DNA of 64,000 nt from Chloroflexota bacterium (GCA_005881885.1 VBDX01000150.1:1-64000), one strand, 5' to 3'. Positions 5,409 through 59,441 are shown, counted from the stretch's first letter. The notes: generated from the sequence alone by a model not told the origin. Program-made: numbers and translations.

Positions 5409-5603
5409 TCAGGCTGGAGGAAGGGCCTCCTCGAGCAGCATCACCGGGATGCCGTCGCGGATCGGGAACCGCTTGCGGCACTGGGTGCAGACGAGGTACT
5501 CGCCCTCCTCGCGCACCGGCGCGTGGTGCTCGTCGGGGCAGGCCAGGATCTCGAGGAGCTCGCGGTCGATCGGCATGTGCTGATTTTCGGACTTGACGGC
5601 CAT
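5409..5603 (-). CDS. Trm112/YcaR-family small zinc-ribbon protein
   Basis: A 64-residue protein matching the Trm112 (UPF0434) family: LLEILACPD near residues 16-24, a CTQCRKRFPIRDGIPVML core and a short acidic end. The Cys pairs probably bind zinc. Family members act as small partners that activate methyltransferases, or have unknown roles in bacteria. Translation could begin at 5603 or at the internal ATG at 5576, where homologues usually begin. The first start lies inside a perfect inverted repeat shared with the divergent subtilase gene. Confidence 0.85.
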   Translation of the reverse strand: MAVKSENQHMPIDRELLEILACPDEHHAPVREEGEYLVCTQCRKRFPIRDGIPVMLLEEALPPA

Positions 5604-5623
5604 GTCAATATCCGCTTGACATG
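5601..5623. promoter_or_regulatory. Perfect 8-bp inverted repeat spanning two divergent start codons
   Basis: CATGTCAA, seven bases, then TTGACATG. The left arm contains the start codon of the Trm112-like gene (minus) and the right arm the ATG of the subtilase gene (plus). A protein bound here would block both starts. It could also be an mRNA hairpin hiding either start. No regulator is identified. Confidence 0.5.
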
Positions 5624-6916
5624 CTGGCCGACACCGACCGCGGGGTTCCCGCCGGGCTCAGCACGAGGATCGTGGTCGAGCCGCCGCGACCTGTCGCGCT
5701 GTCGGTCCTGCCCGCCGAAGAGCCGGCGCGCGCCGAAGCCGTCGGCGTCGGCTCCGGCATTCCCGAAGAGCTCCTCCGCCGATACGGCGCGCGCGTCAGG
5801 CAGACACACCGCCGCGCGAATGTCGTTGTCCTCGAGGTCCCCGCGGACCGCCAGGAGCCGCTGCTCGGCGAGCTCGCGGCGGCCGGCCTCGTCGCCCGCG
5901 CGCCGAAGCCGGTCTATCCGCTGCTGAACGAGAGCGTTCCATCCCTCGCGATTCCACCGGTGTGGCGGTCCGGGTTCCTCGGGAACGGGACGCGCATCGC
6001 CATCGTGGACACCGGCGCGGATCACCATCCCGACTTCGGCGATCGCATCGCGGCGGCACACGACTTCACGGGCGGCCGCGGGCTGGACGACGTCGGCCAC
6101 GGGACACACGTCGCTGGGATCGTCGCGGGCGCGGGCCGTGTGTACCGCGGCGTCGCGCCAAAGGCGATGCTGATCGTCGCGAAGGCGCTCTCGATCGGCG
6201 GCGGCACCGAGGACACGGTCCTGGCGGCGCTCTCTTGGGCCAGCCGCCAGAACGTCGACGTGATCAACCTCTCGCTCGGCGGGCCTGGCGATCCGACCGA
6301 TCCGCTCTCACGCGAGGTCGATGCGCTCAGCGCCGAAGGCATCCTGGTGTGCGTCGCGGCCGGAAACTCGGGCCCCGGCGCGGGGACGATCGGCTCGCCG
6401 GGCTGCGCCGCGGGTGCGATCACGGTCGGCGCCACCGACAAGATGCGACACATCGCCGAATACAGCTCGCGCGGGCCGGTGCCGGGTCTCTCCGTCCACA
6501 AACCCGACGTTGTCGCCGTCGGTGGTGGCACGACCGCGGACGCCAGCTGCCGCTACGGCATCGGGGTGGCGAGCGCCCGGGCGCGTTCGCTGGAGAAGGA
6601 CCGCTGCATCGTGCCGCCGCGCTATGTTCGGATGAGCGGGACGTCGATGGCGGCTCCGCACGTCTCCGGCCTATGCGCGCTGCTCGTCGAATCCTCGCGA
6701 GCGATGGACAAGCGCGCGGCCAAGGCGAGCCGCGCGGGCGCCGTGCGCCGCGCGCTGCTTCAGAGCGCGGGCGACCTCGGGCTCGCGCCGGACGTCGCAG
6801 GCGCGGGCATCGTCGACGGCGCGAGGGCGCTCGCGGCGCTCGCGTCGCGGCGCTCGGTCGAAACGAGCATTTCGTCGTCCACCGCCATGGCCAGGAGCGG
6901 CACCGACCCGAAGTAG
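5621..6916 (+). CDS. Subtilisin-like serine peptidase (S8), no signal peptide
   Basis: A 431-residue subtilase with the complete triad: Asp130 in IVDTGAD, His160 in GHGTHVAG and Ser342 in SGTSMAAPH. The oxyanion Asn is near 249 in AAGNSG. Residues about 55-100 look like a small I9-type propeptide (NVVVLEVP, then LLGELAAAGLVARAPKP). No export signal is visible, so it may act inside the cell or leave by another route. An inserted segment with two cysteines (about 305-332) lies before the active-site Ser. The last 157 bases overlap the convergent membrane-protein gene. A second, secreted subtilase lies at 55364. Confidence 0.9.
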   Translation: MLADTDRGVPAGLSTRIVVEPPRPVALSVLPAEEPARAEAVGVGSGIPEELLRRYGARVRQTHRRANVVVLEVPADRQEPLLGELAAAGLVARAPKPVYPLLNESVPSLAIPPVWRSGFLGNGTRIAIVDTGADHHPDFGDRIAAAHDFTGGRGLDDVGHGTHVAGIVAGAGRVYRGVAPKAMLIVAKALSIGGGTEDTVLAALSWASRQNVDVINLSLGGPGDPTDPLSREVDALSAEGILVCVAAGNSGPGAGTIGSPGCAAGAITVGATDKMRHIAEYSSRGPVPGLSVHKPDVVAVGGGTTADASCRYGIGVASARARSLEKDRCIVPPRYVRMSGTSMAAPHVSGLCALLVESSRAMDKRAAKASRAGAVRRALLQSAGDLGLAPDVAGAGIVDGARALAALASRRSVETSISSSTAMARSGTDPK

Positions 6917-51882: not shown

Positions 51883-54800
51883 TTGACCGTCGCGAGTAGC
51901 AGGCCCGACCGCACGCGGTACGCGCCACCCTCGCTCCCGCTTCCGCTCCTGCAGCGGCAACGGCTGCTCGATCGACTGGGGGGTGCCGACCGGCATCGAC
52001 TGACGCTCGTGCATGCCGCGGCCGGCTACGGCAAGACGACCCTCCTCGCGCAGCACGCGGACCTTCTCCGCGCTTCCGGGCGGCGCATGGCCTGGCTCAC
52101 ACTTCAACGCGGCGACGAGGATCCATTCGTGCTTTTCACCGACCTCGTCGGTGCGCTCCGGCGCGACGACGCGGAGTTCGGCGAGCAGCTCCTCTCGTCG
52201 CTCGAGCATGGACGCAGGCTCGAGCGAAAGCTGCCGCAGCTCGCGCAGGCGCTCGCCGACGAGCTTGCGTCGCTCGGCGAGCTTGTCCTCTTCGTGGATG
52301 ACCACCCGAGCGTGCAGGGCGGCGCGCCGCTCGCGATCTTCGGCAGTGAGCTCGTCGAGCTCCTTCCCGACAACACGCACCTGGTCCTTGCGACCCGCAG
52401 GACGCCCCAGCTCGGGGGTCTTCCGCGGTGGCGTCTCGCGGGCTCGGTCCTGGACATCTCCGCGGCCGAGCTCGCGTTCACGCGTTCCGAGGCGATCGAG
52501 CTCCTGCGCGGTGAATTCGGCCTGGACCTTCCCGAGCACGCCGTCGACGCGATCTATGGGCGCACGGGCGGCTGGCCCGCGGGCCTGCGACTCGCCGCGG
52601 CGTTCGTGCGCGAGCGCGGCTGGCGCGAGCTCGGTGAGTTCCGCGGAAGCGGCGCCGAGCTGTACGCGTACTTCAACAGCGAGGTCCTCGGCCGCGGCTC
52701 GCGTGCCGACCAGGACACGCTCCTGCGATGGTCGCTGCTCGAGCGCCTCGAGGAGGACGAGTCGGTGGCGGCGGGCGGCGCGTCGCGCGAGCTCGTGTCC
52801 TCTCTGGAGCAGGCCGGGCTCGTCGTGCGGGACGGCACGGCCGGGTCCGGCCATCGTTTCCAGCCGCTCTTCGCGGAGTTCCTGCGCGCGCGCGCGCGCG
52901 AGCTGCTGCCGGCGGCCGAGATCGTCGAGCTGCATCGCGGTCATGCCGAGCGTGCGCTCGGTCGAGGCGATGTCGATCGCGCGATCCATCACCTGCAGCA
53001 GGCCGGCGAGCACAAGCGCGCGGCGCAGCTGGTCCGCGATCACGGCGAGCTCGTCGTGGAGGGCAGCGAGGTCGGGACTCTTCAGCGCTGGCTCGATGGC
53101 TTCCCGCCGGGGGTCGAGCGGCGACTTCCGTGGGTGCTGCTTCTTCGCGGTCTGCTCCATCGCGTGCGCGGCGACTACGAGCGCGCGCTCGCGCATTACC
53201 GCGACGCCGCGGATCAGCTTCGGCGCGCGCGGGACGACGAGGGCCTCGCACGCGCGCTGACCTGGTCGGCGCAGGCGTTGCGCTACCTGCGCCGGCCTAA
53301 AGATGCGCTCGCGCAAGCGCACGACGCGCAGCAGCTCATCGGCGAAGGCGCGTCGTCGCAGGCCGCGTGGATCTGGCATCTCATCGGCGGCTGTCACGCC
53401 GATCTCGGCGAGCTCGAGCTAGCGACCACCGCACACCTCAAGGCCGAAGCGATGTTCTCGCTCCTCTCCGACCGCGCCGGCGAGCTCGCGGAAGCCCTCG
53501 CGCTCGCGCAGCTCCATCACCTGCTCGGTGAGCTCGACCTCGCGCAGCGCACGTACCTGCGCGCGCTCGCGCTCCAGCAGAAGACTGCGGACGTCACCGC
53601 GCTCTGCTGGGCGGAGGCCGGGCTGGTCGACGTGCGCACCCGCCGCGGCGACACCGCGGAGGCGCTGGACACGCTCCGCCAGACCCTCGAGATCGCGAGC
53701 GCGAACGATCTCCGCCTCGCGCAGGCGGCGATGTGCGCGACGCTCATGACCGTGCATTCGCTCACCGACGAGCGCGGAGCGGTCGAAGAGGTGTACCGCG
53801 CCGGAGTCGAGCTGTGTCGCGAGCAAGGTGACGATCGCGTGGTCGCCGAGCTGCACGCGACCGCCGCGGAGCTGCGCGCGCTGCGCGGGGAAGCCACTAC
53901 CGCGCACGATGCGCTGCGCGCCGCGGAGGCGATCGCCGCCTCATCACCAGGTCCGGTCGCCGGCATCCGCGCGGCGATCGCGCGCGGCACGATCCTCGAG
54001 GCCGAGGGCGACCGCGACGGCTCATTCAAGGCCTACGGCGAAGCGCGAGCCTCGGCAGGTGCGATCGGGGCGCGCTACCTCGAGGTCAAAGCGGCTCTGC
54101 TTGCCACCGCTGTCGCCGATTGGGTCGTCGAAACGACAAGGCCGGCGCTGCGAGCGGTGGCGGCGGAGCACTATCGCGACTTCCTGCTGCTGCGTCCCGC
54201 CTTGGCCGATGCACTGCGTCAGCGACTTGCGGACCTCGAAATTCCGCCGGACGAGACGCGCGATCTGGCCCTGCTCCTTCAGCCCGCGCCCGTCGTGCCG
54301 TCCGCCGCGCAGGGTGTGTCATCTGCGGCCGCTGAAAGCATTCAGACGTTCATGCTCGGGCCGTTCGAGCTCCGGGCGAGCGGCGCGCGCATCAGCGACC
54401 GCGGCTGGCGAACGAGCAAAGCGAAGGAGCTCTTCGCGCTGCTCCTGCTCGATCGACAGCGGGCGATCTCCCGCGACGAGCTCGTGGCCCAGCTCTGGCC
54501 GGAGACGGACGCGGCCTCCGCGCTTTCCAACTTCCACTTCACGTTGCACGCGCTTCGCAAGGCGCTCGAGTCAGCGGGCGCGTCCGAAGCGACGAGCGTG
54601 GTCCGCACCGACGCCGGATATCGCCTCGCGCTCCCACTGTCGATACACGTCGACCTCGAAGTCTTCCGCCGGTCGCTCAGGAGGGGCCACGAAGCGCGTG
54701 ATGCCGGGAGATCGCGCGAGGCCGTGCAGCACCTGCGCGCCGCGGTGGCCGTTCACCGCGGTGAATTCCTCGCCGACCTGAGCGCCCCGTGGATCGATCG

Positions 54801-55092
54801 CCACCGCGAGGAGACGAACCGTCAGCTGGTCGCGGCGGCGAAGGAGCTCGCGACCCTCGAGCTCGAATGGAAGGAGCCGCGCGAAGCGGTCCGTCCCCTC
54901 GAGAAGCTATTGCAGCGCGAACCGTACGACGAGGAAGCCCATCGCTTGCTGATGCGCGCGCACCACGAGTCCGGCGATGCCGCTCTGGCCATGCGCCACT
55001 ACCAGGCCCTCGAGGCCATGCTCCGCCGCGACCTCGGCGCCGAGCCCGAGGCCGCGACCCGCGAGCTCTACCAGCGGATCAAGCGCAAATAG
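51883..55092 (+). CDS. STAND ATPase-TPR regulator with C-terminal SARP-like DNA-binding and BTAD domains
   Basis: A 1069-residue regulator. The N-terminus has a Walker A motif HAAAGYGKTTLLAQ and a later VLFVDD (Walker B-like) of MalT/STAND type. GWPAGLRLAAAFV matches the winged-helix after the ATPase. Residues about 350-800 are TPR repeats. Residues about 820-910 form an OmpR/SARP-type helix-turn-helix (LGPFELRASG, RTSKAKELFALLLLDRQRAISRDELVAQLWP). The end (about 920-1068) is a bacterial transcriptional activation domain with EPYDEEAHRLLMRAHHESGDAALAMRHY. In many such proteins the SARP/BTAD part is N-terminal; here it is last. The target is unknown. Confidence 0.88.
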   Translation: MTVASSRPDRTRYAPPSLPLPLLQRQRLLDRLGGADRHRLTLVHAAAGYGKTTLLAQHADLLRASGRRMAWLTLQRGDEDPFVLFTDLVGALRRDDAEFGEQLLSSLEHGRRLERKLPQLAQALADELASLGELVLFVDDHPSVQGGAPLAIFGSELVELLPDNTHLVLATRRTPQLGGLPRWRLAGSVLDISAAELAFTRSEAIELLRGEFGLDLPEHAVDAIYGRTGGWPAGLRLAAAFVRERGWRELGEFRGSGAELYAYFNSEVLGRGSRADQDTLLRWSLLERLEEDESVAAGGASRELVSSLEQAGLVVRDGTAGSGHRFQPLFAEFLRARARELLPAAEIVELHRGHAERALGRGDVDRAIHHLQQAGEHKRAAQLVRDHGELVVEGSEVGTLQRWLDGFPPGVERRLPWVLLLRGLLHRVRGDYERALAHYRDAADQLRRARDDEGLARALTWSAQALRYLRRPKDALAQAHDAQQLIGEGASSQAAWIWHLIGGCHADLGELELATTAHLKAEAMFSLLSDRAGELAEALALAQLHHLLGELDLAQRTYLRALALQQKTADVTALCWAEAGLVDVRTRRGDTAEALDTLRQTLEIASANDLRLAQAAMCATLMTVHSLTDERGAVEEVYRAGVELCREQGDDRVVAELHATAAELRALRGEATTAHDALRAAEAIAASSPGPVAGIRAAIARGTILEAEGDRDGSFKAYGEARASAGAIGARYLEVKAALLATAVADWVVETTRPALRAVAAEHYRDFLLLRPALADALRQRLADLEIPPDETRDLALLLQPAPVVPSAAQGVSSAAAESIQTFMLGPFELRASGARISDRGWRTSKAKELFALLLLDRQRAISRDELVAQLWPETDAASALSNFHFTLHALRKALESAGASEATSVVRTDAGYRLALPLSIHVDLEVFRRSLRRGHEARDAGRSREAVQHLRAAVAVHRGEFLADLSAPWIDRHREETNRQLVAAAKELATLELEWKEPREAVRPLEKLLQREPYDEEAHRLLMRAHHESGDAALAMRHYQALEAMLRRDLGAEPEAATRELYQRIKRK

Positions 55093-55363: not shown

Positions 55364-56833
55364 ATGACAGGACGGACGGGTGGGGTACTGCGGCGCGGTG
55401 TCGCGCTCTTCGCCGCGTCCGTTCTCTTCTTCGCCGTCGCCCCCGGAACGAACTGGACGGCGGCTCCCGTCGACCCCGCGCTCGCCTCCGGCGGCTACGC
55501 GCTCGTTCGCGTCGGCCACGGCGCCGCCGGAGCGGTCGCGGCCGAGGTCCAGGCCTCCGGCGCGACCGAGATCGCCGCACTCGACGCCATCGACGTCGTC
55601 ACCGCACGCATCTCCGACGACGCGCTGCGTGCACTGCGAAGTGATCCGCGGGTGGCCTTCGTGGTGGCCGACACGATCGTCTCAGCAGTCGGCAAGGAGA
55701 AGTATTTCGAAAAGGCAACGGGCAAGCCCAGTCCCGGCATCGAAGTGGTCGATGCCCAGCGGGCCTGGTCCAAGGCCACCGGCCGCGGTGTGACGGTCGC
55801 ACTGATGGACACCGGCGTCGCCCGGCATCCCGATCTCGATGGGTCGGTGCTGGCACGGCTCGACTTCGTAGGTGATGGCGCCACGCAGCTCGACCCGAGC
55901 GGACATGGCACGTTCGTCGCAGGGCTTATCGCGGCGCACGGCGAGTCATTCAAGGGTGTCGCGCCGGACGCCAAGGTCGTCTCCCTTCGGGTGCTCGATC
56001 AGAAGGGCGACGGGACGATGCACTCTGTCCTCGCCGCGTTCGACTGGCTCCTGCGCAACCGCTCCGCGTACCACATCCGCGTCCTCAACCTCTCGTTCGG
56101 GGCGAAGCAGACGACGTCGTACCACCGGACGCTTCTCGCCGGCGTCGTAGAGTCCGCTCACTTCGCGGGCATCGCGGTCGTCGCGGCAGCGGGGAACGAC
56201 GGGCCCGACCCTCGCACCGTAAGCATGCCGGGCGCTGATCCCTTCGTGATCACCGTCGGCTCGTTGGCCGACCGGGGCACACCGGGCTGGGGAGACGACC
56301 GGGAATCGGTCTTCAGTAGCCGCGGTCCGACGCGGGACGGGTTCGCGAAGCCCGACGTGCTCGCGCCAGGCGAGCACGTCGTCTCGCTGCGCGTCCCGGG
56401 GGCGGCGTTCGACAAGGACGGCGAGCCGAACGCGACACCCTACGCGCGCCTGACCGGCACCTCGGCTTCGAGCGCGATGGTCGCCGGCGTTGCCTCGCTG
56501 GTTCTGCAGGCACATGCCGGCTACTCGCCGAGTCAGGTGAAAGGCGCGCTTGTCGCGGGCGGCCGCAACGTGTGGGGCACGGAGACGCCCGGGGCAAACG
56601 CGCTCGATGCGCTCACCGCGCGCCCGGCACTCGTGAACGCGCGCGTTGCGCCATCGGCGCTCCTGATGAAAGTCCTTGTCGCGAGCGGTCAGATCGCGGG
56701 CAGCGTGAACTGGGACGGAGTCACGTGGGAAGGCATTACGTGGGAGAGCGTCACTTGGGAGGGCATCGCATGGGAGAGCGTTTCATGGGAGAGCGTTACC
56801 TGGGAGAGCGTCACATGGGAGGCACGTTCGTGA
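55364..56833 (+). CDS. Secreted subtilisin-like peptidase with C-terminal Trp-Glu pentapeptide repeats
   Basis: A 489-residue protein from ATG 55364, chosen for the GGGGGA just upstream. A basic N-terminus and hydrophobic helix (GVALFAASVLFFAVAPG) form a signal peptide or anchor. Residues about 45-105 look like an I9-type propeptide. The triad is Asp149 (LMDTGVARHPD), His181 (GHGTFVAG) and Ser367 in TGTSASSAMVAG; the usual GTSMAxP is altered after Ser. AAAGNDGP supplies the oxyanion Asn. The last 42 residues are eight copies of a pentapeptide, TWE[GS][IV]-like. The stop overlaps the HD-GYP start (GTGA). The same SWE motif recurs in two miniproteins downstream. Confidence 0.88.
   Translation: MTGRTGGVLRRGVALFAASVLFFAVAPGTNWTAAPVDPALASGGYALVRVGHGAAGAVAAEVQASGATEIAALDAIDVVTARISDDALRALRSDPRVAFVVADTIVSAVGKEKYFEKATGKPSPGIEVVDAQRAWSKATGRGVTVALMDTGVARHPDLDGSVLARLDFVGDGATQLDPSGHGTFVAGLIAAHGESFKGVAPDAKVVSLRVLDQKGDGTMHSVLAAFDWLLRNRSAYHIRVLNLSFGAKQTTSYHRTLLAGVVESAHFAGIAVVAAAGNDGPDPRTVSMPGADPFVITVGSLADRGTPGWGDDRESVFSSRGPTRDGFAKPDVLAPGEHVVSLRVPGAAFDKDGEPNATPYARLTGTSASSAMVAGVASLVLQAHAGYSPSQVKGALVAGGRNVWGTETPGANALDALTARPALVNARVAPSALLMKVLVASGQIAGSVNWDGVTWEGITWESVTWEGIAWESVSWESVTWESVTWEARS
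56708..56827 (+). repeat. 15-bp tandem repeats encoding Trp-Glu pentapeptides
   Basis: Eight 15-bp units encode NWDGV, TWEGI, TWESV, TWEGI, AWESV, SWESV, TWESV, TWEAR. Trp and the acidic residue are fixed while others vary. The GGGAGG that serves as ribosome site for the next gene lies within the last unit. Confidence 0.9.
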
Positions 56834-58221
56834 AAGGCCGGATCGATCTCTACGTCGGCACGGTGGCCTTCGCCGGTCTGATCGCGCTCATGGCCGCGTC
56901 GAGCACGCAGAGGACGGACGCGCTCGACCCGATCATGCTCGCGGTGCTGGTCGCGCTTGCATGCGTCGCCCAGCGTGTTCCCGTCTTCCTGTTCCGATCG
57001 AGCGCGATCTCGGTCTCGTTCGCGGCCGTGATCGCCGCGTACGTGCTCTACGGAACGGGTGCGGCGGTGTGGGTCAGCCTTGCGCAGGCGCTGGTGAACT
57101 CGATCACACCTCGTCGGAAGCCGCTACGCAAAGCGGCATTCAACTTCGGGTCGTTCGCGCTCTCGGCATTCGCCGCCGGGGAGCTCTACCGGCTCATTGG
57201 CGGCATGACTCCACCGGCCGCGATCGGGCCGACGCTCCTGGCGGTGGCTCTGTCGGCCGGCGCGTACTTCCTCGTGAACACCACGCTCACCGCGGTCGCG
57301 ATCGCGTCGTCGGAAGGCCAGAACGTCGTCTCGGTATGGCGGACGAACTACAGCTGGATGCCTGTGAACTTCGGCGCCACGGCGGTGCAAGGCGCCGCGC
57401 TCGCACTCGCGTACCAGGCGCTGGGCCTATTCGGTGTGTTCGTCTTCACGGTCCCGCTGTGCGTCGCATGGTTCTCCTTCCGTCTCTATATGACGAAGTC
57501 CACTGAAGTTCGACAGCGGAATGAGGAGCTCAGCACGGTCAACGAGCTGCTGCGCCAGACCAACGATCGTCTCGAGCAATCGCATATCTCGGTCATCGGC
57601 GCGCTCATCGGGGCCCTCGAGGCCAAGGAGTCGCACCTCTCGGGACACGCCGCGACGACGATGCACTACTCCGTCGAGGTCGGGCGGAAACTCGGGCTCG
57701 GTGCCGACGAGATCGCCGGGATAAAGCTCGGCGCGCTCTTCCACGACGTCGGCAAGATCGGGGTTCCCGAGTCGCTCCTCTCCAAGCCTGACGAGCTCAC
57801 CGACGAGGAGTGGGTCGAGATGCGTGCCCACCCGACGATCGGCGCGAGCCTTCTCGGCAACGTGCCGATGCTCGATCGCATCCGTCCGATCGTGCTCGCA
57901 CACCACGAGAACTTCGATGGCACCGGCTACCCCGCGGGGCTCAAAGGCAGCGAGATCCCGCTCGCCGCGCAGATCATCTCGGTGGCCGACTCATACGACG
58001 CGATGACGAGCGAGCGGCCCTATCGCATCGCGCTCCGTCCCAAGCAGGCGCTCCGCGAGCTTCGCGCGAACGCCGGCACGCAGTTCAACCCGGTCGTGGT
58101 CGAAGCGTTCATCCAGGTCGTCATCGAGGAACGTCGCCGCGCGGCGCGCGGCAAGGCGCCCGTACACGGTCACCGGCACGTTTACCAGCAGGCGCTCGAG
58201 GCCGTAAAGGTCGCGAGCTAA
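56830..58221 (+). CDS. Membrane HD-GYP cyclic-di-GMP phosphodiesterase-like protein
   Basis: A 463-residue protein from GTG 56830, which overlaps the subtilase stop and has GGGAGG seven bases upstream. About seven helices fill residues 5-215 (a MASE-like sensor). A coiled coil (TKSTEVRQRNEELSTVNELLRQTNDRLEQS) links to an HD-GYP domain: LFHDVGKIGVPESLL, HHENFDGTGYPAGLKG, SVADSYDAMTSERPY. It likely degrades c-di-GMP in response to a membrane or outside signal. Two miniprotein genes follow 11 bases later, suggesting one unit. Confidence 0.92.
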   Translation: MKGRIDLYVGTVAFAGLIALMAASSTQRTDALDPIMLAVLVALACVAQRVPVFLFRSSAISVSFAAVIAAYVLYGTGAAVWVSLAQALVNSITPRRKPLRKAAFNFGSFALSAFAAGELYRLIGGMTPPAAIGPTLLAVALSAGAYFLVNTTLTAVAIASSEGQNVVSVWRTNYSWMPVNFGATAVQGAALALAYQALGLFGVFVFTVPLCVAWFSFRLYMTKSTEVRQRNEELSTVNELLRQTNDRLEQSHISVIGALIGALEAKESHLSGHAATTMHYSVEVGRKLGLGADEIAGIKLGALFHDVGKIGVPESLLSKPDELTDEEWVEMRAHPTIGASLLGNVPMLDRIRPIVLAHHENFDGTGYPAGLKGSEIPLAAQIISVADSYDAMTSERPYRIALRPKQALRELRANAGTQFNPVVVEAFIQVVIEERRRAARGKAPVHGHRHVYQQALEAVKVAS

Positions 58222-58232
58222 GGGGGTTCGGA

Positions 58233-58385
58233 ATGAAGATCGCACGCACACTCAAGACGGTGCTCATCGCGATGGTCCTCGTGCTCTCGCTCTTTGCGGC
58301 GCGAGGCACGGCCTGGGCTGACGACGCGGGCGTGAGCTGGGAGCAGGTCCCGGACATGCCGGATCCGATGGCGGTGGGCTTCTAA
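58233..58385 (+). CDS. Secreted miniprotein 1 with SWE motif
   Basis: A 50-residue protein with AGGGGG upstream. A signal peptide (KIARTLKTVLIAMVLVLSLFAARGTAWA) is followed by an Ala-x-Ala cleavage site, leaving the acidic 21-residue peptide DDAGVSWEQVPDMPDPMAVG plus Phe. Its core SWE matches the pentapeptide repeats of the subtilase two genes upstream. It ends TAATG, overlapping the next miniprotein. It could be a secreted signal, a peptidase substrate or a structural peptide. Confidence 0.75.
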   Translation: MKIARTLKTVLIAMVLVLSLFAARGTAWADDAGVSWEQVPDMPDPMAVGF

Positions 58386-58543
58386 TGAAGATCACGCGGG
58401 CGATGAAGACGCTGCTCGTCGCGACGGTCCTCGTACTTTCGCTGTTCGCCGCTCGAGGCACGGCATGGGCCGACGACGCGGGCATCAGCTGGGAGCACGT
58501 CCCGGACCTTCCTGACCCTATCGGGATCAGCTGGGAAGAGTGA
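58385..58543 (+). CDS. Secreted miniprotein 2 with two SWE motifs
   Basis: A 52-residue paralogue of the previous protein (signal peptide MKITRAMKTLLVATVLVLSL, then FAARGTAWA). The mature part has 23 residues: DDAGISWEHVPDLPDPIGIS then WEE, with two SWE motifs. Start and stop overlap in TAATG. The signal peptides are nearly identical, showing a recent tandem duplication, while the mature parts differ at selected positions. The function is unknown. Confidence 0.75.
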   Translation: MKITRAMKTLLVATVLVLSLFAARGTAWADDAGISWEHVPDLPDPIGISWEE

Positions 58544-58545
58544 CG

Positions 58546-59430
58546 CTAGACCCCCGCGAATTCAGGTAGCGCGAACAGGTCTTCGAGGGTGCGGACGACG
58601 CGGTCAGGGACCGCGTCGCCCGCCGCCCGGTCCAGCGACCCTTCTTCGGTCAATCCCGTCGTGATGAGCACCCCGGTGGCGCCGACGCGGTGCGCCGCGA
58701 CCATGTCGTAGTCCGTCGAATCGCCGACCACGATGACCCGCTCCGCGTCCTTCCCCGCGCGCCGGATGGCCTCCTGGAAGAGGAACGGCTCCGGTTTGCC
58801 GATGCAGATGGCGCGTGCCCCGGTCGCGACCTCGATCGCCGCGACGATCGTGCCCGCGCCGGGGAGGAGCCGCCCTTCCACGGGGTACGCGCGGTCGCGA
58901 TTCGAACAGACAAAGTGCGCGCCGGCGATGACCGCGCGTTGCGCCTCGGCGATCTTCGCGTAGGTGAGGTGCAGATCGAGTCCGACGACCACCGTGTCCG
59001 GCGGCGGCGGCAGCTTGAGGCCGACGAGGTAGCGGCGCATCGCGCCGGGGTCGACGCCGTCGGCGGCGGCCTCCGGCGGCGGGTGGATGCCCGGTAGGTC
59101 GGACGCCGCGCGCACTCGGATCCCGACGGCGCGGATCTCCTCGCGCAGCCCATCCGCCCCGATCACGAGGACGTCGTTGGACCTGGGCCGGCGGCGCTCG
59201 AGGTAGTGCGCGGTCGCGTAGCCGCTGGTGACGATGTGCTCGCGGTCACCGCCGAGTCCGAGCTGCTGGAGACGTCGCAGGTACTCATCGCGGGTCGCGG
59301 TCGAGTTGTTCGTGGCGAAAAATACGTCCCAGGTGGCCCGGCGCAGGCGCGTCAGCGTCTCGCGCGCGTAGGGCATGACCTGCGCGCCGCGGTAGAGCAC
59401 GCCGTCCATGTCGAAGATCGCAATCGGCAT
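58546..59430 (-). CDS. HAD-IIA (NagD-like) phosphatase
   Basis: A 294-residue HAD phosphatase from ATG 59430. Motif I is IFDMDGVLYRG, motif II is FFATNNSTAT, motif III Lys is in IGKPEPFLFQ and motif IV is VVGDSTDYDM. It belongs to the NagD/phosphoglycolate/4-nitrophenyl phosphatase group; the natural substrate is unknown. It lies 11 bases after the Nudix gene on the same strand. Confidence 0.92.
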   Translation of the reverse strand: MPIAIFDMDGVLYRGAQVMPYARETLTRLRRATWDVFFATNNSTATRDEYLRRLQQLGLGGDREHIVTSGYATAHYLERRRPRSNDVLVIGADGLREEIRAVGIRVRAASDLPGIHPPPEAAADGVDPGAMRRYLVGLKLPPPPDTVVVGLDLHLTYAKIAEAQRAVIAGAHFVCSNRDRAYPVEGRLLPGAGTIVAAIEVATGARAICIGKPEPFLFQEAIRRAGKDAERVIVVGDSTDYDMVAAHRVGATGVLITTGLTEEGSLDRAAGDAVPDRVVRTLEDLFALPEFAGV

Positions 59431-59441
59431 CGGGCGACAGG

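Follow-up and report, generated by a model that had tools for sequence, protein, structure and literature searches.

The window analysed here, a 64,000-nt stretch of Chloroflexota DNA, holds a cluster that is conserved in soil Chloroflexota: a putatively secreted protease with a Trp-repeat tail, a membrane enzyme predicted to degrade c-di-GMP, and one to three mini-proteins that bear the same tag as the tail. The first-pass annotation had read the shared motif as a link between the three, with a protease that could process or bind the small peptides and an HD-GYP protein that could sense them and change c-di-GMP, and our analysis partly supports that interpretation. We favour, tentatively, a version of it in which the sensor would read the motif on tail, tail fragments and mini-proteins alike, and would set c-di-GMP.

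Table 1. Features of the cluster and its flanks, in window coordinates.
Feature	Position	Strand	Evidence and details
SARP/MalT-like regulator (BTAD, Trans_reg_C, TPR)	51883..55092	+	Pfam BTAD 1.2e-29; 5' neighbour of the S8 gene
Putatively secreted S8 subtilase	55364..56833	+	Pfam Peptidase_S8 2.7e-49; alternative start 55313; stop 56831-56833
I9-like inhibitory propeptide region, S8 residues 45-110	55496..55693	+	Fold alignment
Array of 8 Trp pentads (S/G-V/I-T/S/A-W-E/D), S8 C-terminus	56702..56821	+	Direct reading
MASE9-type membrane sensor + HD-GYP phosphodiesterase (predicted)	56830..58221	+	HD_5 5.7e-38; MASE9 2.7e-8
MASE9 region of the sensor, residues 63-208 of the ATG frame	57001..57438	+	Pfam PF20972
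HD-GYP domain	57607..58095	+	Pfam HD_5; Foldseek 4mcw 8e-6
Mini-protein 1, 50 aa	58233..58385	+	Putative signal peptide 58233-58319; mature 21 aa; GVSWE 58329-58343
Mini-protein 2, 52 aa	58385..58543	+	Putative signal peptide 58385-58471; mature 23 aa; GISWE 58481-58495 and 58523-58537
Convergent HAD-family phosphatase	58546..59433	-	Pfam Hydrolase_6 4.4e-28; conserved flank, outside the module

Direct reading of the window bore out the coordinates of the first-pass annotation and its description of an intact, tailed S8 gene that overlaps, at its 3' end, a membrane HD-GYP gene. The HD-GYP frame is open from an ATG at 56815 to the stop at 58219-58221, and comparison with orthologs (MKGRIDLY in relatives) suggests that translation starts at the GTG at 56830. 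Mini-protein 1 begins 11 bases after the HD-GYP stop and is coupled to mini-protein 2 by TAATG. The genes are presumably co-transcribed; a scan of the region for promoters and terminators gave no signal above shuffles. The HAD gene is kept at the equivalent place in genus relatives. On the other flank, the SARP/MalT-like regulator lies 5' of the S8 gene in 7/10 genus relatives (fetched regions), and the conserved block may include it, its membership of the module being uncertain. The window also encodes a second S8 subtilase (5597-6916, plus strand), which has no Trp tail.

The S8 domain scores 168.5 bits against a Pfam PF00082 gathering cut-off of 21.8, and its D-H-S motifs (DTG, GHGT, GTSAS) are intact. 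AlphaFold2 gives a confident pro-subtilisin fold, most of whose core has pLDDT 85-97; the nearest solved fold is Tk-SP (3afg). The fold alignment covers pro-subtilisin structures including their propeptide (3afg, 3whi, 2e1p); Pfam I9 gave no match in this region, so the propeptide was assigned by structure. The tail carries eight tryptophans at a five-residue spacing (SVNWDGVTWEGITWESVTWEGIAWESVSWESVTWESVTWE) and is predicted to be disordered (pLDDT about 30-50); neither Pfam nor NCBIfam contains a match to the array, and no fold is predicted for it. The first-pass annotation also allowed for an autoinhibitory tail; the analysis spoke neither for nor against this. Six of its tryptophan columns are invariant in an alignment of 19 tailed S8s, and the repeats are kept at the protein level while varying synonymously. 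Within the host genome, the WE-pentad DNA pattern is confined to this S8 gene. The same genome encodes at least one further tailed S8, of the WDSIA/WDSVA type (G000:C163, locus L249:5806-8445, minus strand), and the WDSIA type turns up throughout the genus, again without an HD-GYP neighbour.

The overlapping gene encodes a predicted c-di-GMP phosphodiesterase: its HD_5 match scores 130.8 bits, and the HDVGK and HHExxDGxGYP residues are present in the window protein and its orthologs. The MASE9 domain scores 34.4 bits (29.0-36.1 in relatives) against a Pfam gathering cut-off of 24.3. The AlphaFold2 model has a mean pLDDT of 63, with much of the membrane part at 75-89. In a Foldseek comparison, the membrane part shows a resemblance to ECF S-components, with TMt about 0.5-0.64 and, for RibU and ThiT, a probability of 0.94-1.00; the matches carry E-values of 0.08-1.7 and depend on a query model of mean pLDDT 63, and the corresponding sequence match is weak (E 0.02). 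None of the neighbouring genes read encodes an ECF ATPase or T-component. ECF S-components bind small molecules in an outward-open pocket, and such a pocket would suit a receptor for a short motif without proving one.

Each mini-protein has a signal-peptide-like start (n-region, hydrophobic core, AxA-type site) followed by GTAWA. We placed the cleavage after GTAWA by eye using the AxA rule rather than a predictor, and with this placement the mature lengths are as first described; so are the tandem arrangement and the distance from the HD-GYP gene. A "tag" in this context is the motif [IV][ST]WE that the mini-proteins share with the S8 tail. The earlier claim of a shared SWE motif holds for the tail and for both mini-proteins, but it passed over a loss: mini-protein 1 keeps its inner GVSWE and ends in MAVGF, so the terminal GISWE that most relatives and mini-protein 2 retain is gone. 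Mini-protein 2 keeps GISWE twice (peptide DDAGISWEHVPDLPDPIGISWEE). The loss in mini-protein 1 is possibly the early decay of a duplicate. Pairwise dN/dS among the mini-proteins is about 0.16-0.6 (0.26 between mini-proteins 1 and 2), which indicates that they are under purifying selection. A Pfam search with the mini-proteins gave nothing above the cut-off.

The first-pass annotation staked its proposal on the genes recurring together in relatives, and they do: S8, HD-GYP and mini-protein occur in 11/11 genomes of the genus. A family protein search found relatives of the mini-proteins in the 10 other genomes, and the order S8, HD-GYP, mini-protein, convergent HAD gene is kept in all 10, a few of the S8 genes being cut by contig ends. 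Across the genus, the signal peptide, GTAWA and SWE of the mini-proteins are conserved while the linker varies, and a ribosome-binding-like sequence precedes the mini-protein in the spacers read.

Among 177 genomes of the class, strong matches to the mini-protein profile are confined to the window's genus and a second genus (g2), where two or three tandem mini-proteins follow the HD-GYP gene in all five genomes. Nine of the 11 g2 mini-proteins read end exactly at [IV][ST]WE-stop and two end one residue later; in the near-complete genome of the relative G014 (2.8 Mb), there are just three [VI][ST]WE-stop sites and all are mini-proteins. An S8 gene is visible in only one g2 genome (G012), because the contig ends inside the HD-GYP gene in the other four of the five. 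In G012, the tailed S8 is flanked by two HD-GYP genes (L065, G012:C193), and the other g2 contigs that end inside HD-GYP may reflect this duplication. Further out, one g8 genome has an HD-GYP fragment at the end of a contig, with a mini-protein that terminates in DITWE behind it, and in a sister family a mini-protein ending LNITWED lies 12 nt 3' of a MASE9-HD-GYP gene with no S8.

In the HD-GYP protein tree, the family's mini-bearing members group in a single clade (100/99), and the order also contains several paralogous pairs of tailed S8 and MASE9-HD-GYP without mini-proteins. Class-wide counts of [VI][ST]WE-stop are inflated because the pattern admitted TGG as a stop, and none of the true-stop candidates readable outside the order is a mini-protein. 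A related-locus search with a single S8 gave no match. The mini-proteins are confined to one order, and the pairing of protease and sensor predates them and has a broader distribution.

To follow the sensor beyond the genus, we searched 201 genomes of the phylum with the membrane part of the HD-GYP protein, counting matches with E<=1e-29 as strong. For ten of the 11 strong matches, which include related genomes and are therefore not independent, the gene immediately upstream, in the same orientation, is a Trp-tailed S8; the eleventh, from the sister family, has no S8 beside it and a mini-protein downstream. Among the weaker matches examined, 1/21 has a tailed S8. A profile of the membrane region places the sensor next to tailed S8s in other lineages as well, where the outputs differ: HD-GYP, GAF-HD-GYP, GGDEF-sensor-GAF-HisKA and sensor-GGDEF all occur behind S8, a Thermoleophilia MAG has GGDEF-MASE9-HD beside a tailed S8, and a Dehalococcoidia MAG has a stand-alone sensor there. 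Since the sensor is constant while the outputs are swapped, it is the sensor domain that is indicated as the partner of S8. The earlier suggestion of the HD-GYP protein as a putative sensor of the motif draws support from this constancy and from the mini-protein behind the MASE9-HD-GYP gene that has no S8.

Individual loci vary in their arrangement. At L389 (G291:C126, Chloroflexota), the gene behind a WDAVS-tailed S8 encodes a fusion of GGDEF, membrane sensor, GAF and histidine kinase. At L199 (Chloroflexi CF_94), a tailed S8 is followed by two tandem MASE9-like membrane proteins, the second with GGDEF. At L182, from the cultured actinobacterium Geodermatophilus telluris DSM 45421, the gene immediately after a WSGMS-tailed S8 encodes a membrane GAF-GGDEF-EAL protein, the membrane part of which matches the sensor profile weakly (E 0.003).

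Most S8-sensor pairs have no mini-proteins, which counts against the reading favoured here; the mini-proteins look like an addition made in one order and dispensable for the basic function. Because they are younger and less widespread than the pair, S8 is unlikely to have had their processing as its ancestral role.

In the reading we tentatively favour, the cluster would be an extracytoplasmic sensing module in which the membrane domain of the MASE9-HD-GYP protein, probably with an outward-facing pocket like that of an ECF S-component, would act as receiver and the output would be c-di-GMP breakdown. The Trp-Glu pentad would be the recognised element. Eight pentads would be displayed on the flexible subtilase tail, where they could stay tethered, be shed or be degraded as the protease works, and this order would also secrete at least one pentad copy in the form of short tagged mini-proteins whose genes lie immediately after that of the receiver. 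Tail, fragments and mini-proteins would then compete for or co-occupy the receiver, so that the state of the protease and the level of mini-protein would together set c-di-GMP. That the sensor binds the motif, that the pentad is its ligand and in which direction c-di-GMP would change are what we infer.

The mini-proteins might instead act on the protease, as inhibitors, chaperones or co-assembly partners at the place that the tail binds, with the HD-GYP gene merely co-regulated. The motif common to tail and mini-proteins and the S8 gene upstream throughout the genus agree with this, as does the likeness of mini-protein pentads to the tail of their own genome. The number found in the genome's own S8 tail is 7.5, compared with 4.4 under shuffled pairing (p 0.008 for 12 genomes and 0.02 for 7 representatives, values that are uncorrected for relatedness and use pentads chosen by eye); this likeness equally favours the sensor reading. 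For example, TVSWE is matched in G008 and NITWE in G154, where mini-protein and S8 are at different loci; the window is an exception, its mini-proteins having no exact match to its own tail. However, one mini-protein follows a MASE9-HD-GYP gene with no adjacent S8, mini-proteins always follow the HD-GYP gene, and paralogous pairs of tailed S8 and HD-GYP exist without one. We consider an action on the protease unlikely, if still the best placed of the alternatives.

Slightly less likely again is that the Trp pentad is a tag for surface retention or assembly, comparable to sorting or wall-binding repeats. Tail and mini-proteins would then bind a common envelope component, and the sensor would detect the state of the envelope. 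Here the spread of the tails matters: among the matches listed when 84,980 species genomes were scanned for the repeat pattern, Trp-tailed S8s occur in several Chloroflexota groups and in Actinomycetota, and the residue after the tryptophan is E, D, N, S or T. The sensor was absent beside several Trp-tailed S8s (the WDSIA paralogs, two Anaerolineae loci and others), which counts against the favoured reading: the tail must also function in other settings or with partners encoded far away. Tails in several lineages with a varied residue after W, some of them lacking a sensor, agree with a surface tag, and a multivalent, predicted disordered tail would suit it, but it leaves unexplained both the frequent adjacency of the sensor and the position of the mini-proteins right behind the sensor gene.

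The same variation in the residue after W bears on a third possibility, which we regard as improbable, namely that the tail is a tandem peptide precursor. Cuts after Glu would shed pentapeptides ending in WE, and the mini-proteins would be single-copy precursors with extensions trimmed after WE. Most sister-genus mini-proteins do end exactly at WE, as cleavage after Glu in the tail would leave them, others bear short extensions past WE, and the repeats are conserved as protein with synonymous variation. A Glu-specific cut would, however, treat the D, N, S or T found after W in other lineages differently. Least of all do we credit the idea that the mini-proteins are by-products with no function, short secreted ORFs that perhaps arose from the tail repeats and that chance has kept: their small size, variable linker and absence from most S8-sensor pairs agree with it, as does the terminal motif lost from one of them, but their dN/dS, their ribosome-binding-like sites, the retention of the motif while the linker diverges and in each tandem copy, and their presence in two genera plus a sister family all speak against it.

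If the favoured reading is right, the cluster would provide a route from extracellular proteolysis to intracellular c-di-GMP, as well as a function for the mini-protein family and for the Trp-repeat tails of many subtilases. To our knowledge, the ligands of most MASE-type membrane sensors of c-di-GMP enzymes are unknown; the pentad, if it is a ligand, would be an experimentally accessible signal for one of them. A broader claim is more doubtful: that a linear Trp-pentad read by an S-component-like sensor driving c-di-GMP or kinase outputs, in Chloroflexota and Actinomycetota, is a previously undescribed sensing class, with the pentad repeated along the tail of a protease and present once in each dedicated secreted mini-protein. 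We know of no system that matches this arrangement; a search of the open-access literature found no paper on it, an absence that counts for little given that scope. The features tested place every protein of the cluster in a known family except the mini-proteins, which form a family of putatively secreted proteins of about 47-66 residues, undescribed in the libraries we used.

The individual components all have known counterparts. The protease shares its catalytic domain, triad motifs and N-terminal propeptide with Tk-SP/pro-subtilisin-type subtilases (PF00082; 3afg, 3whi), and differs in its added C-terminal Trp-pentad array. Its core also resembles mycosin (TIGR03921), but we rejected that identity: the score of 160.9 bits is well below the curated equivalog cut-off of 278.75, and the neighbours read include no type VII secretion genes. 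The sensor has the domain order and intact signature residues of other MASE9-containing HD-GYP phosphodiesterases (PF20972 + PF13487), from which its subgroup is set apart by the Trp-tailed subtilases it is paired with and by the tagged mini-proteins that accompany it in one order. Its predicted membrane fold may be that of the ECF S-components (RibU, ThiT, FolT, BioY), but here that domain is fused to a signalling output.

As a whole, the cluster can be set beside peptide-pheromone operons such as the Agr type, in which a small exported peptide, a membrane sensor and an exported protease are likewise encoded together. Operons of peptide plus receptor are already known, and this one would be a new class only if the motif proves to be the signal. 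In contrast to the Agr type, the locus contains no histidine kinase and no known exporter or modification enzyme, and the motif carried by its mini-proteins is shared with the protease's own tail.
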